Source: Desulfoglaeba alkanexedens ALDC
GTDB taxonomy: Bacteria; Desulfobacterota; Syntrophobacteria; Syntrophobacterales; DSM-9756
NCBI RefSeq assembly: GCF_005377625.1
Contig: NZ_CP040098.1
Coordinates: 1,357,501 to 1,421,500, forward strand
Direction: 5' to 3'
Length of the DNA: 64,000 bases
A program made the translations under genes and the position numbers. Below the pieces are notes generated by a model. It was not told the origin of the DNA and did no database searches. It was given only the letters and a program-made list of their open reading frames with translations. Of this stretch, positions 2,456-34,985 are shown one piece after another (position 1 is the stretch's first letter; each line of letters opens with the position of its first letter).

Positions 2456-2628
2456 GCCCCCGCATTGTGCCGTGTCGGCAGTCGGTCTTGAACCGATTCA
2501 GCTAAGTGGGCGTCTCGTAGTTCCCTCAGGCGCTTCGGACAACCGACGCGCACACCGGAACCAGCGGAAACTCCCTTCTTTTTTGTGTTGGCTCAGGACG
2601 CTCTGTCGATCACGAACACCGCAGGGGC
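2456..2628 (-). ncRNA. ssrS: 6S RNA (ssrS), regulator of sigma-70 RNA polymerase
   Basis: Read on the minus strand, the first part contains TGTTCGTGATCGAC followed by GTCCTGAGCC, matching the conserved 5' strand of 6S RNA (E. coli has TGTTCGCAAGC and CCCCTGAGCC). The ends can pair: GCCCCTGCG at the 5' end with TGCGGGGGC at the 3' end, closing a molecule of about 173 nt with a large internal bubble. A gene next to rny in a deltaproteobacterium is a plausible position. 6S RNA mimics an open promoter and sequesters the sigma-70 holoenzyme. Exact ends are estimated from the closing stem. Confidence 0.8.
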
Positions 2629-3005
2629 AACCCTACCAGGTGTTATTTAAGTTCAACTCTCCCGGGCAGCGAGCCACCAATCCCTCACCGCCCATGGCAT
2701 TTGCGGCAATAGGCACGCTCTGTTTTCCGTCTCTGGCCGTGCTCTTGACGACTCATATTTCCACGGTTCGTGAGTCCCAGGCGGAATCGCCCCGCTTCGA
2801 ACCGCTGGCAGATTGGGAACGCGATGCTGATTGCCCGAGGGAACCTCCTGCCCTTCATGCCGGCCCCGGTACAGGTTCCTTCGCTTCTCCTCATTTGGGA
2901 TCCTAAAGCTGGGCACCCGGCGGCCCTGATCGCCTATCAGGCGTTTCATTTCGCCATCGTCGATACAACCCGCCAGAATCACACGCCTTTTCCCTTCGCA
3001 AATCC
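2629..3005. other. Intergenic stretch with no recognisable gene
   Basis: About 375 bases between the promoter downstream of glmS and the 6S gene. Short open frames exist on both strands, but none has a convincing ribosome-binding site, composition or family resemblance. zapA, which often precedes 6S RNA, was looked for and not found. A weak TTGAAC element lies about 20 bases before the 6S 5' end and could be its proximal promoter. Confidence 0.5.
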
Positions 3006-3035
3006 ATTCTATTCAAAAAGCCCAAAGCAAGTCAA
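3006..3035 (-). promoter_or_regulatory. Sigma-70 promoter directed toward the 6S RNA and rny
   Basis: On the minus strand TTGACT and TAGAAT are separated by 18 bases, just after the glmS stop. It points toward the 6S gene about 370 bases away, so it may drive a long 6S precursor and possibly rny-tyrS. Confidence 0.55.
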
Positions 3036-3059
3036 GTTGATTTATCTCCGACCGCGGGC

Positions 3060-4892
<1,833 letters not shown>

Positions 4893-28953: not shown

Positions 28954-30480
28954 ATGGTCGCCAAAACCTACACACTCGGACTCCTCGGCATAGACGCCTT
29001 CCTGGTGGAAGTCGAGGTGGACATCTCGACCGGCCTTCCGTCCTTCGCCACCGTCGGGTTGCCTGACAGCATCGTCCGGGAAAGCCGGGACCGCATCAAG
29101 GCGGCAATTCAAAACAGCGGCTACCCTTTTCCCATGGATCGGGTGACGGTGAACCTTGCCCCCGCTCACATGAAAAAGGAGGGTTCCGGTTTCGATCTTC
29201 CTATCGCTGCGGCTATTCTGGCAGCCACCGGCCTCATCGACGCCGGAGCGTTGCAGGATGCCCTGCTCGTAGGGGAACTCTCGCTGGACGGACAAGTGAG
29301 GGGGATCGTCGGGACCCTCCCCATGGCCGTCGAAGCCCAACGCCAGGGTCGGTCCGCTTTCTACGTTCCTTCGGAAAATGTTCAGGAAGCCGCCATCGTC
29401 CAAGATCTCAACGTCTACGGCATCCAGCACCTATCTCAGTTGGTCGAACTGCTGGCGGGAAGGCTGGAACTGGAACCCCAACGCTTCGCCGCCGGCCGCC
29501 TCCTCGACGCCCCCGATCCCGACGGCCCGGACTTGCTCGATGTAAAGGGCCAAGAACACGCCAAGAGAGCCTTGGAAGTGGCCGCCGCCGGCGCCCACAA
29601 CCTCCTGCTCATCGGTCCGCCCGGTTCGGGCAAGACCATGCTTTCCCAGCGGCTTCCCTCCATCCTTCCCCCGTTGAGTTTCGACGAGGCGCTGCAGACA
29701 TCCAAGATCTACAGTGTGGCTGGACTGCTGAAAGGCCGTCCGCTGGTCACGCGCCGGCCTTTCCGAAACCCTCATCACACCATCTCCGATGCCGGGCTCA
29801 TCGGCGGAGGCCATATCCCGCGGCCCGGGGAAGTCAGCCTCGCCCACAACGGCGTACTTTTTCTCGACGAATTTCCCGAGTTTCGCAGGAACATCCTGGA
29901 CCTGCTGAGGCAACCCCTGGAGGACGGAAGGGTTACCATCGCCAGAGCCAACATGACCCTCACCTATCCCGCCTCCTTCATGCTGGTCGCCGCCATGAAT
30001 CCCTGCCCTTGCGGCTATGCCGGAGACCCCAACCACGCCTGCCGGTGTTCCGAGCATCACATCCATCGGTACCGAAGTCGCATCTCCGGCCCCATCTTGG
30101 ACCGCATCGACCTCCATGTCGAGGTCCCCGCCGTCCGCTACGAAGATCTCAAAGGCTCCTCCGCCGGCGAATCTTCGGAAGCCATCCGTCGGCGGGTTGT
30201 GAACGCTCGGCAACGCCAACTGGCCCGCCTCTCGACCGAAAAGACTTTCAGCAACGCGGCCATGACCCCCAAACAAATCCACCGCCATTGCCGCCTGGAC
30301 GAGCACGGGCTCCATATTCTCGAAGACGCCATCCGCCGCCTCGGCTTCAGCGCCCGCGCCTACCACCGCATCCTCAAGGTCTCCCGAACCATTGCGGATC
30401 TCGAAGATTCCGAGGACATCCGGCCTCATCATGTGCTCGAAGCCATTCAGTACCGGTCGCTTGACCGGGATCTCTTTTGA
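28954..30480 (+). CDS. comM: YifB/ComM family Mg-chelatase-like AAA ATPase
   Basis: ComM is a hexameric helicase that promotes branch migration during natural transformation in other bacteria. The protein has 508 residues. An N-terminal Lon-protease-like domain covers about residues 15-140 ([15 protein letters not shown]). The ATPase P-loop is [17 protein letters not shown], with FLDEFPEF (Walker B) and a [17 protein letters not shown] zinc-type loop. The ATG at 28954 matches the family N-terminus; upstream ATGs at 28876 and 28939 cannot be excluded because no ribosome-binding site is clear. Confidence 0.92.
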
Positions 30481-30762
30481 TCCGGGAGCCCAAGCCCCCC
30501 CGGCTCTCAGGGGTGGACACGCCGTTTCTTCTCACAGAGGAACCCATCCTGCCGGCAAGGCCGCAGCCGATAATTTCTACTCACATGATCATTCTCCAGC
30601 ATGATGTCGTTTCCCATTTTTCTGGTTAAAACATTTCACCCATGCCTCTATGTTGTGCCATCTGTGAGGTCTTTCCCTCGCGGCGGGCACCACTTCCGCT
30701 GCGCCGTCCGGTTCTTGTTTCCGTTTTGATTGCGACATTCACGCCGCCAAGGAGGAAGCACC

Positions 30763-31695
30763 ATGAAAGACACGTCCAGTTTGCGAAGCGGCCTTTTTTG
30801 CTTCACCATTCTGGCGCTCATGAGCCTCTGCGTTGCCGCAGGGCCCAGAGTTTCGTCCGCCAAGACCATTCGGTTCCTCGACAACAGCTGGGACACCATC
30901 CAGGTTCACAACCGAATCGTCGGGTTCGTCGCCAAGCACGGCTACGGCTATGATCCCGATTACATCACCAGCGAGACAATCCCCGGCATGGCTGGGCTCA
31001 TGCGGGGAGATGCGGACATCAACATGGAAGTATGGATCGAAAACGTACAGGAAGCCTACGACAAGGGAATTTCGTCCGGGGTCCTGCTCGACCTGGGGAG
31101 CAATTTCCCCGACAGTTGGCAGGGTTGGCTTGTCCCCACGTATGTGATCCAAGGCGACGTGGAAAGGGGTATCAAACCGATGGCTCCCGACTTGAAATCC
31201 GTGTTCGATATGCCCAAGTACTGGGAGCTTTTCAAAGATCCCGAAGATCCTTCCAAGGGACGTTTCTACAGTTCCATCCCTGGCTGGAAAGTCACCGAAC
31301 TCAACGAACAGAAATTCAAGGCCTACGGTATGGAAGAACCGCGCGTGCTGCTCTACGAGTGGGAAGGTCCGAAAACCGCCCGCCACATGCTCCAGGCCAA
31401 CCACAATGACCACGCGTTCGTTCTCACCAAGAATCGGAGGCTTTGGGGGCTGGTCACCCGGGAGACACTTCGACAACTCATCGATAGCGGAAAACCTTCC
31501 ATCAGGGACGCTCTCATCACAGACATTCCCACCTGCAAACCGGAGATGCTGGTGGAAGAGTTGTTCCTACTGGCTTCCTCCAGCCCATATCCCATCGCGG
31601 TGGTCAACGAACAAGGCCGTTTTCTGGGTGAAATCGACAATCGGACCATTCTGGACAGCATGATCCAGGAACGAGGGTCTTTGAATGTGGAATGA
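30763..31695 (+). CDS. Chimera: OpuAC/ProX-type binding protein fused to ProV CBS tail
   Basis: The first 190 residues have a signal peptide (hydrophobic to about residue 30) and the front of a glycine betaine/proline-type binding protein (SETIPGMAGLMRGDADINME, SSIPGWKVTELNEQKFKAYG). From about residue 190 the sequence changes to the CBS domains that end the ATPase ProV/OpuAA (LYEWEGPKTARHML, ITDIPTCKPEMLVEELF). The rear lobe of the binding protein and the whole ATPase domain are missing. An in-frame deletion across the two genes explains this. The ATG at 30763 is preceded by AAGGAGG. The product is unlikely to work in transport. Confidence 0.85.
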   Translation: MKDTSSLRSGLFCFTILALMSLCVAAGPRVSSAKTIRFLDNSWDTIQVHNRIVGFVAKHGYGYDPDYITSETIPGMAGLMRGDADINMEVWIENVQEAYDKGISSGVLLDLGSNFPDSWQGWLVPTYVIQGDVERGIKPMAPDLKSVFDMPKYWELFKDPEDPSKGRFYSSIPGWKVTELNEQKFKAYGMEEPRVLLYEWEGPKTARHMLQANHNDHAFVLTKNRRLWGLVTRETLRQLIDSGKPSIRDALITDIPTCKPEMLVEELFLLASSSPYPIAVVNEQGRFLGEIDNRTILDSMIQERGSLNVE

Positions 31696-32545
31696 ATTTC
31701 CGCGGTTTTTTCGAATCCCTCTCTCCGACTGGATCGACGCCCTGATGGATTGGGTGCTCACCCACTGGGGGGCCTTTTTCGATGCCTTCGGCGACGTCCT
31801 TCTCAAGATCCTGCTTGTGATCGAAGCTTTTTTCCTCTGGCTTCCCTGGCCGGTGACCGTAGCGGCTGTCTGGCTTGCGGCCTGGTGGGCCCTAAGGCGG
31901 TGGTGGGCAGGGCCGGCCATGGCTCTGCTGTTTATCCTTATTGGATCCTTCGGCTATTGGAATCTCGCCATGATGACCATCGCCATCGTGGTTTCAGCGG
32001 TCGTCATTTCCCTCATGGTGGGCATACCGGCCGGGATTGTCATGGCCTGGAGCGACTGGGTGGAGTCCACGGTGCGGCCCGTTCTGGACGCCATGCAGAC
32101 CATGCCTTCCTTCGTCTATCTCATCCCGGCGCTCATGCTCTTCGGACTGGGCAAGGTTCCGGCCGTCTTCGCCACCATCGTGTACGCCATGCCGCCGGTC
32201 ATCAGGCTTACCAACGTGGGGATCCGCCAGGTGCCGAAGAGTATTATCGAGGCGGAAGCCTTCGGCGCCAATCGGTGGCAGGTGTTGTTCCACGTACAGA
32301 TTCCTCTGGCCAAACCGTCCATCATGGTGGGGATCAACCAGACCACCATGATGGCCCTTTCCATGGTGGTGATCTCGTCCATGATCGGCGCCCGCGGCCT
32401 GGGGCTTGAAGTGCTGCTCGCCATCAATCGCATCGAGGTGGGCCGCGGTTTTGAAGCCGGATTGAGCATCGTTTTCCTTGCAATCGTGATCGATCGAATC
32501 ACCAACGCGCTGGCGGCCCGGCAGCGCCACCGTGAGACCGCATAG
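31685..32545 (+). CDS. opuAB: Glycine betaine/proline ABC transporter permease
   Basis: This is a ProW/OpuAB-type inner-membrane permease for compatible-solute uptake. The 286-residue protein has about six hydrophobic segments. The EAA-type loop reads IEAEAFGANRWQVLFHVQIP. IRLTNVGIRQVPKS and MVVISSMIGARGLGLEVLL are family segments. Its start overlaps the chimeric gene by 11 bases, the normal spacing to a ProV gene. It has no complete ATPase partner in the window. Confidence 0.93.
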   Translation: MWNEFPRFFRIPLSDWIDALMDWVLTHWGAFFDAFGDVLLKILLVIEAFFLWLPWPVTVAAVWLAAWWALRRWWAGPAMALLFILIGSFGYWNLAMMTIAIVVSAVVISLMVGIPAGIVMAWSDWVESTVRPVLDAMQTMPSFVYLIPALMLFGLGKVPAVFATIVYAMPPVIRLTNVGIRQVPKSIIEAEAFGANRWQVLFHVQIPLAKPSIMVGINQTTMMALSMVVISSMIGARGLGLEVLLAINRIEVGRGFEAGLSIVFLAIVIDRITNALAARQRHRETA

Positions 32546-32607
32546 CCATCGGAAGCCTGAGCGACGTCCCTGCCGGCGGGTCCTCCTTCGCGATCCCGGT
32601 CCCACGA

Positions 32608-32650
32608 CCCCCCATTGGTACTTCACAAAAACAGAGTAAAGTGCTTATAA
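32608..32650. repeat. Left copy of a 43-bp direct repeat bounding the island
   Basis: 37 of 43 bases match 35327-35369 without gaps. The core is CATTGG, one variable base, then ACTTCACAAAAACA, ending CTTATAA. The two copies enclose the toxin-antitoxin, integrase remnant, Fic and hsdM-tail region. Confidence 0.75.
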
Positions 32651-32737
32651 GTAAATGTTGCAAAGTAAAAATGGACAAAGTTGCAAAACCCGTTGCTGGC
32701 TTGAACCGACCCGTCATAGGTCCTTGCATCTAATAAC

Positions 32738-32868
32738 GGATGCAGATCTTTTAGAACGACATCCAAGGTGACCCTCCGAAGTACCTCCAGATGGTCTTGA
32801 AGCAGCAAGCACATCAGCTCCGTTTCCTGCTGATTCCTTCACACTTTCGTTTCAAAAGATCTGCACCC
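32738..32868. mobile_element. 131-bp MITE-like element, copy 1
   Basis: The ends form terminal inverted repeats of 15 bases (GGATGCAGATCTTTT against AAAAGATCTGCACCC, one mismatch). A second copy at 33516-33646 has the same length and orientation with about nine differences. There is no transposase inside, so it would have moved in trans if mobile. No target duplication is evident. The two copies flank the toxin-antitoxin pair. Confidence 0.75.
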
Positions 32869-33020
32869 GGTGACGTTGGTAAAGGTCCTGAAATCGATTG
32901 ATTTCGGCCTGGTTTATGGTATGCTTATTTTCGATTTGAGCTGCCTGGAATTGGGCGACGTCTGTGCTTCATAGCGGCAGGTGAGCTTGGGCCTTAGCCA
33001 AAGTACGGGAGATAATAAGC

Positions 33021-33026
33021 TATACT
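33021..33026 (+). promoter_or_regulatory. Possible -10 element of the toxin-antitoxin operon
   Basis: TATACT lies 27 bases before the antitoxin start, in an AT-rich leader, followed by GGAGGT at the ribosome-binding position. No good -35 is visible, so the operon may be weakly expressed or autoregulated. Confidence 0.35.
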
Positions 33027-33052
33027 ATCACTGAATTTTTGGAGGTAAGTTC

Positions 33053-33253
33053 ATGGTTACTGCGGAATCACTTGAAAAAGCGGTGGAACAACTGTCCCCG
33101 GCTGAACTAGCCAAGTTCCGTCGTTGGTTTTTACAATTTGATGCAGATGCCTGGGATGCGCAGATTGAAGCGGATGCCGCCGCTGGAAAACTAGACACAC
33201 TCGCTGACGAAGCACTCGCTGAATATCATAGTGGTCAGGTACACGAGATTTGA
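33053..33253 (+). CDS. Antitoxin of a RelE/ParE-type toxin-antitoxin pair
   Basis: The 66-residue acidic protein (MVTAESLEKAVEQLSPAELA, then KFRRWF and an acidic C-terminus) has the size and composition of a type II antitoxin. GGAGGTAAG precedes the ATG. Its stop overlaps the toxin start by 4 bases (TTGA), the usual coupling. I do not recognise a DNA-binding fold in it; the family assignment rests mainly on the toxin partner. Confidence 0.75.
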   Translation: MVTAESLEKAVEQLSPAELAKFRRWFLQFDADAWDAQIEADAAAGKLDTLADEALAEYHSGQVHEI

Positions 33254-33510
33254 AACATTTCACTTCGCGCCGGTTCTGGCAATGTTTTGATGCGCTACCC
33301 ACACAAATTCAGGAGCTTGCACGCCGTAATTATGCTTTACTCAAGCATAATCCGGCACATCCATCGCTTCACTTTAAGTCTGTCTGTTCCGGACGTTTCA
33401 GAAGTATTCGCGTAGGGCTGCATTATCGGGCGCTTGGCGTACCCGTTCCTGATGGTGTTCAGTGGTTCTGGATCGGAAGCCACGATGAGTATGATCAGCT
33501 TATTGGCTAA
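33250..33510 (+). CDS. RelE/ParE superfamily toxin
   Basis: The 86-residue basic protein has the RelE/ParE pattern: SRRFWQCFDALPTQIQELAR (helices), LHFKSVCSGRFRSIRVGLHY (beta core with the conserved Arg-Ser-Ile-Arg-Val) and a C-terminal WFWIGSHDEYDQLI strand with His-Asp-Glu-Tyr. RelE-like toxins cleave mRNA on the ribosome, whereas ParE members poison gyrase; which applies here cannot be read. The start is TTG overlapping the antitoxin stop. The stop lies 6 bases before the second MITE-like copy. Confidence 0.8.
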   Translation: MKHFTSRRFWQCFDALPTQIQELARRNYALLKHNPAHPSLHFKSVCSGRFRSIRVGLHYRALGVPVPDGVQWFWIGSHDEYDQLIG

Positions 33511-33515
33511 CGAAT

Positions 33516-33646
33516 GGGTGCAGATCTTTTAGAACGACATCCAGAGTGACCCTTCGAAGTACATCCAGATGGCCTTGAACCAGCAAGCGCATCAGCTCCG
33601 TTTCCTGCTGATTCCTTCACACTTTCGCTTCAAAAGATCTGCACCC
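33516..33646. mobile_element. 131-bp MITE-like element, copy 2
   Basis: Terminal inverted repeats GGGTGCAGATCTTTT and AAAAGATCTGCACCC are perfect over 15 bases. It follows the toxin gene and abuts the integrase remnant, whose frame it cuts. A solitary 15-base end of the same sequence lies at 60169. Confidence 0.75.
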
Positions 33647-33775
33647 AGCCGCTTTTCAGGAGCTGCGTGGCGTAGGAATGCCGGAATGTGTGGCACGTTG
33701 CGCGTTTGGCCAGCCCCGCCTTTCTTACCGCACCGTTGACCGCCTTCCGGATGATCGATTCGTGAACGTGAGAGA
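33647..33775 (-). pseudogene. Tyrosine recombinase (integrase) C-terminal remnant
   Basis: On the minus strand a 40-codon frame reads VHESIIRKAVNGAVRKAGLA, then CHTFRHSYATQLLKSG. This is the conserved region with the catalytic HxxR (HTFRHS) of tyrosine recombinases, closest in my reading to integron-type and related integrases. Upstream the frame meets a stop, and downstream it runs into the MITE-like element before the catalytic tyrosine. It is therefore inactive and was truncated by that insertion or by deletion. Confidence 0.75.
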
Positions 33776-33821: not shown

Positions 33822-34985
33822 TCATAGCGGCTCCGCCCCTTCGCTCAAGACGGCCAGAAACTTCTGGTACGCAAAGACGCGGTTGCGGCGCTGGCCGGTG
33901 ACTTCGCGGACAATGCCCAGATCCTCCAGCATCCGCAAGGATTTGGCGGCGGCGGGAAACGAAAGCCCTGTGCGTTTACGTACCTGATTGACTGTGACCA
34001 ATGGCCGTTCACAAAGCACCCGAAAAACTCGTAAGGTCGTGGACGCTCTGCGTTGGGATTGCTGGATGCTTCGCTCGTCCTGCTGGAAAAGCCCGAGCAA
34101 ACGTTTTGCGGTCTGGACAGCGTTTGTGGCCGTCTGTTCGACCCCTTCCAGAAAGAAATCCAGCCAGGCTTCCCAATCGCCCTCCGCGCGCACCAGGTCA
34201 AGCAAGCGGTAATATTCAGCGCGATGCTGTTTGAAGTACAGGCTGAGATATAGCAGTGGCTGAGATAGCAGCCGGTCGTGGTGGAGAACGAAGGCGATGA
34301 GCAGGCGTCCGATCCGCCCGTTGCCGTCCAGGAAGGGATGAATCGTCTCGAACTGGACATGCGCCAGCGCCGCTTTGACAAGCGCAGGGTATGGATTGCC
34401 TTCACCATGGAGGAAACGCTCCAGATGAGCCATACAATCCTCCACGTGGTCAGGCGGAGGAGGGACGAAGGCTGCATTTCCAGGACGGGTGCCGCCGATC
34501 CAGTTTTGCGAACGGCGGAATTCGCCTGGAGATTTTGCGCTGCCTCTTCCGCTCTGCAGCAAAATGGCGTGCATCTCCCGGATCAAATGGTTTGAAAGCG
34601 GGAATCCTTCTCGCAGTCGCTTGAGCCCGTGGTTGAGCGCTGCCACGTAGCTGGAAACCTCAACCACATCATCAATGGGCACGCCAGGCGCTTCTTCCAG
34701 TTCAAAGAGGAGCAACTGAGCCAGAGATGACTGCGTGCCCTCGATTTGCGAAGAGAGCACAGCCTCACGGCGCACGTAGGCGTAGAGAAACAGATCACGC
34801 TCGGGCAGGAGCAGGGTCACGCTATCGAGTCGGCCCAGCGCCAGGGTTGCTCGTTCCAGTACCTGCAGGCGTTGCTCGGTTAGTTGCAGCGGAGGGGTCG
34901 GCGGCAGGGGATGTGGGACGAACGCCCGGATCGTCTCCCCTGCGATCTGGCTTGTTTCATAGCTTCCGGTCAGGCCGCGGCGCAT
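33822..34985 (-). CDS. Fic family protein (probable AMP-transferase) with winged helix
   Basis: The 387-residue protein has a Fic domain with the complete HPFLDGNGRIGR motif, whose His catalyses transfer of AMP (or related groups) to target hydroxyls. The inhibitory helix SSQIEGT lies N-terminal to it, marking a self-inhibited class. An N-terminal Fic_N-like region and a C-terminal winged helix (VTVNQVRKRTGLSFPAAAKS) are present. The winged helix suggests transcriptional or autoregulatory binding. Upstream, 34990-35060 is very AT-rich with repeated TTTAATAA-like blocks that could be an operator. Confidence 0.92.
   Translation of the reverse strand: MRRGLTGSYETSQIAGETIRAFVPHPLPPTPPLQLTEQRLQVLERATLALGRLDSVTLLLPERDLFLYAYVRREAVLSSQIEGTQSSLAQLLLFELEEAPGVPIDDVVEVSSYVAALNHGLKRLREGFPLSNHLIREMHAILLQSGRGSAKSPGEFRRSQNWIGGTRPGNAAFVPPPPDHVEDCMAHLERFLHGEGNPYPALVKAALAHVQFETIHPFLDGNGRIGRLLIAFVLHHDRLLSQPLLYLSLYFKQHRAEYYRLLDLVRAEGDWEAWLDFFLEGVEQTATNAVQTAKRLLGLFQQDERSIQQSQRRASTTLRVFRVLCERPLVTVNQVRKRTGLSFPAAAKSLRMLEDLGIVREVTGQRRNRVFAYQKFLAVLSEGAEPL

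Follow-up and report, generated by a model that had tools for sequence, protein, structure and literature searches.

A recent in-frame deletion has probably inactivated an osmolyte importer in Desulfoglaeba alkanexedens ALDC, leaving a chimeric pseudogene that is open by chance. The locus lies in the window analyzed here (64,000 nucleotides; positions 1,357,501 to 1,421,500 of contig NZ_CP040098.1, forward strand), where an open reading frame (ORF) of 310 amino acids (30763-31695, + strand), with an ATG start and the ribosome-binding site AGGAGG just 5' of it, joins the front of a substrate-binding protein (SBP) to the tail of an ATPase. As originally predicted, the ORF is followed, with an overlap of 11 bases, by an intact ProW-type permease gene on the same strand (31685-32545, 286 amino acids; BPD_transp_1 and ABC_choXWV_perm matches). 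No known RNA elements were found in 30450-33700. The case would be one of ordinary gene loss, set apart only by the chance survival of the open frame.

The N-terminal 190 codons of the fusion (30763..31332, + strand) encode an apparent signal peptide (approximately residues 1-33) followed by the leading ~57% of an OpuAC-type (DmpX/ProX-like) binding domain, residues 34-192 matching positions 1-146 of the 257 in the Pfam OpuAC profile (E = 2.3e-20). The export signal was assigned by eye (MKDTSSLRSGLFCFTILALMSLCVAAGPRVSSA/KT), together with a predicted helix at residues 5-25. The remainder, including the stop codon (31333..31695, + strand), encodes the C-terminal tandem CBS domains of a ProV/OpuAA-type ATPase: a Pfam CBS match (E = 1.2e-6) comes after OpuAC, NCBIfam proV covers the fusion by its last ~100 positions alone (257-358 of 363), and the match among solved structures was the OpuA ATPase (7ahc chain D, residues 290-389). 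For the N-terminal half, the nearest solved binding protein was the DMSP-binding DmpX (7yle); the original assignment to a betaine-binding protein holds for the OpuAC type, with betaine a putative ligand. With the Pfam, proV, and solved-structure matches divided between the two halves, the change of identity first noticed near residue 190 (about 31330) was correctly observed; relatives placed it at 31332/31333, between Gly190 and Met191.

In nine loci of other genomes, namely two of the same order (G015 and G027) and further genomes in genome_contigs, genes for the binding protein (333-356 amino acids), the ATPase (393-493 amino acids), and the permease (282-312 amino acids) were found intact, in that order and in one direction. 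Fusion residues up to 192 were 51-69% identical to intact binding proteins (15 loci), and those from 190 on were 42-57% identical to the ATPase tails (nine loci), while the permease shared 64-74% identity with permeases of intact operons. Because its halves are 42-69% identical to two adjacent genes of one operon elsewhere, the fusion is not a product of chance. When mapped onto these loci, the sequence before the junction breaks off midway through the first gene, and the sequence after it resumes where the ATPase domain of the second gene ends, which supports both the ancestral gene order and the deletion put forward in the original prediction. Among the seven loci for which distances were computed, the DNA between the matching points amounted to 1.3-1.8 kb, and a deletion size of 1.3-1.8 kb thus represents the spacing in relatives, not that in the organism's own ancestor. 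The subfamily is absent from most members of the same family. One contig (L044) carries a tandem pair of OpuAC-type binding-protein genes belonging to the subfamily (1318-2331 and 2582-3592).

The junction itself (GGT/ATGGAA, 31330..31338, + strand) was compared at the codon level with 12 binding-protein loci and 8 ATPase loci. Binding proteins read ..KAYG-LDK at this point (AAG GCC TAC GGN YTN GAY, i.e., KAYGLD) and ATPases read ..IMEQPNVLLYEWQGP (ATH ATG GAN NAN CCN, i.e., IMEQP), while the fusion reads ..KAYG-MEEPRVLLYEWEGP (AAG GCC TAC GGT ATG GAA GAA CCG), passing from the YG of the binding protein to the MEEP of the ATPase. At most ~4-5 bases were ambiguous between the two sides. A long direct repeat at the junction was rejected, with no more than ~5 bases common to both sides; a short one may have been present at the deletion endpoints. 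These features also bear on the only serious rival, an assembly or culture artefact, in which the cells would keep an intact operon from which the assembler, or a culture variant, has dropped 1.3-1.8 kb. We consider this unlikely, given that no junction repeat longer than ~5 bases is at hand to explain a collapse, that a clean, codon-exact in-frame junction is untypical of assembly errors, and that the genome forms one 3.37-Mb contig.

Downstream of the permease, the window contains two copies of a MITE-like repeat of ~131 bp (32738-32868 and 33516-33646) with terminal inverted repeats GGGTGCAGATCTTTT...AAAAGATCTGCACCC. The copies flank a small gene pair (33053-33510), the second gene of which is ParE-like, and a Fic/DOC-family protein with a C-terminal winged-helix region is encoded at 33822-34985 on the minus strand. 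A deletion via these repeats was rejected, as they lie downstream (32738-33646) and none is found at the junction. The MITE-like repeat recurs across the genome, with at least 40 occurrences, and in many copies (L070, L071, L072, L074, L075, L076, and L078) a second repeat (CCTCGTTCCCAAGCTCCAGCTTGGGAAC...) breaks the sequence at the same point, position 93, which suggests that a palindromic element has inserted there in a nested or site-specific manner.

DmpX binds its ligand through Trp35, Thr64, and Trp84 in domain I and Glu113, Trp152, Ala153, Tyr200, and Trp202 in domain II; its hinges are located at residues 106-111 and 244-247, and DMSP binding is abolished when Tyr200 is replaced by Ala or Phe (PMC10030565). 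When these positions were mapped onto the fusion through the G015 protein, four aromatic or Thr ligand equivalents were found to be kept (Trp43, Thr72, Trp91, and Trp175), whereas the fusion has no counterpart of Tyr200, Trp202, or the second hinge (244-247), and the C-terminal part of domain I is missing as well. On DmpX, the retained piece covers the N-terminal portion of domain I, followed by about the first half of domain II; what had been called a front lobe is therefore the front part of OpuAC and not a whole lobe. The complete two-domain OpuAC fold, with both hinges and the aromatic ligand cage, is not present, and 43 of the 86 invariant family residues fall in the lost part. From the ATPase, the whole nucleotide-binding domain (Walker A, signature, and Walker B) is gone, the GLSGSGKST, LSGGMQQR, and LIMDEP of the relatives all lying within the missing part. 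In an AlphaFold model, blocks of ten in the CBS half scored 81-95, except at the very end of the chain, and those in the SBP half had means of 31-67 after the signal helix, compared to 76-94 for the same segment (the domain I core) of an intact relative with a similarly shallow alignment. The SBP half is thus not predicted to fold, a contrast that is supportive only, because the alignments were shallow. We infer that the fusion product is inert.

A retained gene would, however, look alike, with an open frame, a ribosome site, and an intact permease downstream. If the fusion were a functional new protein, the CBS pair of an exported chimera or the truncated binding domain would be useful in itself, or the product would regulate the permease; the strength of the ribosome-binding site, the preserved translational overlap with the permease, and the good predicted fold of the CBS half are all consistent with this. 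We nevertheless regard it as very improbable, as the break passes through the ligand site, the structure prediction does not yield a folded SBP half, and the fusion occurs in one genome only among those searched. Indeed, comparing the locus across genomes, as had been proposed at the outset, showed the operon intact in relatives and the fusion in none. Separate genes only were detected in 39 genomes of the order and in a sample of 395 genomes of the phylum, all of them from outside the genus, and the fusion was found in none of the 13 genome_contigs loci (0/13) and in none of the plasmid hits listed. Long, low-identity plasmid matches (23%) were rejected as fusions, being full-length binding proteins. 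Literature searches for an OpuAC-CBS fusion retrieved nothing.

CBS domains bind cytosolic nucleotides. The signal peptide would take those of the fusion out of the cytosol and into the envelope, and the pair would therefore have no cytosolic nucleotide to sense; with no ATPase present, there would also be nothing for it to regulate. The original prediction had raised an acquired sensory or regulatory use, but this is unsupported, because no relative has the fusion and the CBS domains would be exported. We give even less credence to its specific form, a retained, exported CBS module on half a binding domain that is translationally coupled to the permease and has taken on a new regulatory or sensory role.

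The genome was searched as one contig of 3,365,583 bases. The fusion was the sole OpuAC match, with no second OpuAC protein in the genome, and the search for a stand-alone ProV ATPase, suggested from the start, found none above the NCBIfam proV cut-off. Using the full-length ATPase of a relative as the query, we recovered only generic ABC ATPases (best, 38% identity) and the CBS tail of the fusion; the best genomic ATPases showed 35-38% identity and were without a CBS tail. The ATPase at 2.70 Mb, which had the best proV score, was rejected as a replacement, as the neighboring genes encode a permease and a binding protein of its own, of another ABC type. A move of the missing parts to another locus was likewise rejected, as the genome is without a second OpuAC protein or ProV ATPase. 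Judged by these searches, the permease at 31685-32545 appears orphaned, with neither a cognate ATPase nor a complete binding protein in the genome, and its transport activity has presumably been lost. The least probable reading is that the SBP piece is inert while the permease is still used, either as a passive channel or in partnership with another ATPase of the genome and another binding protein. In favor of this reading, the permease is intact and shows no accelerated evolution, and there are ~50 ABC ATPase matches in the genome, but the missing OpuAC and proV-family partners argue against it. Elsewhere in the same genome (L007, G000:C1:2587994-2588551), an in-frame TAA was noted inside an ABC ATPase match, possibly marking another decaying transporter.

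Branch lengths for three pieces were taken from a fixed tree of ten loci. The terminal branch of D. alkanexedens measured 0.278 for the N part, 0.421 for the CBS part, and 0.232 for the permease, and those of other tips reached 0.41, 0.50, and 0.23, respectively; in all three pieces, the D. alkanexedens branch was unremarkable beyond overall divergence. Private breaks of otherwise invariant columns numbered 3, 2, and 3 in the same pieces, compared to 0-7, 0-3, and 0-3 in the others, and third-position G+C was 0.72 and 0.68 in the fusion halves versus 0.71-0.78 in neighboring genes. By private changes, branch lengths, and third-position G+C, no decay was thus seen in the remaining parts across the ten-locus tree, which leaves a young event, a retained protein, or a faulty assembly. 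Synonymous divergence from the nearest relatives was judged too great for dN/dS to be informative. The absence of decay, a junction found in no relative, and a remaining operon that looks ready to work are what an artefact would also predict. Of the three readings, we favor the recent deletion over sensory use and assembly collapse.

We infer that one recent deletion took place and is present in the cells. The ancestor would have carried a three-gene operon for an osmolyte ABC importer (OpuAC-type binding protein, CBS-tailed ATPase, and permease). A single in-frame deletion, probably through illegitimate recombination that involved little homology, if any, would have eliminated ~140 codons from the 3' end of the binding-protein gene, ~290 codons from the 5' end of the ATPase gene, and the gap between the two genes. 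The frame would have stayed open by chance (1 in 3), and with the operon dead there would be no selection for or against it. Automatic pipelines would annotate the ORF as a glycine betaine binding protein and its neighbor as a working permease, although the importer is most likely dead and the genome, by the searches made, has no other OpuAC system and no BCCT carrier. If confirmed by reads, the locus would exemplify transporter loss in a clean and apparently recent form.

The fusion halves and the permease derive from the operon type of ProU/ProXVW, OpuA, and DmpXWV, which consists of an OpuAC binding protein, a CBS-tailed ATPase, and a permease. Unlike these systems, the fusion has neither a nucleotide-binding domain nor a complete binding protein and cannot work as an ABC importer. 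OpuABC of Lactococcus lactis, a permease-binding protein fusion, likewise unites parts of a betaine-type importer in a single chain; however, fusions of that type keep whole domains and a working transporter, whereas here the donors are cut inside a domain or down to a fragment. In-frame deletions between neighboring genes are known to yield chimeric ORFs, and unitary pseudogenes occur in bacterial genomes. The locus resembles these cases in having one junction, with gene order and direction kept and the intervening DNA gone, and in having a fusion product stripped of its catalytic and binding parts.
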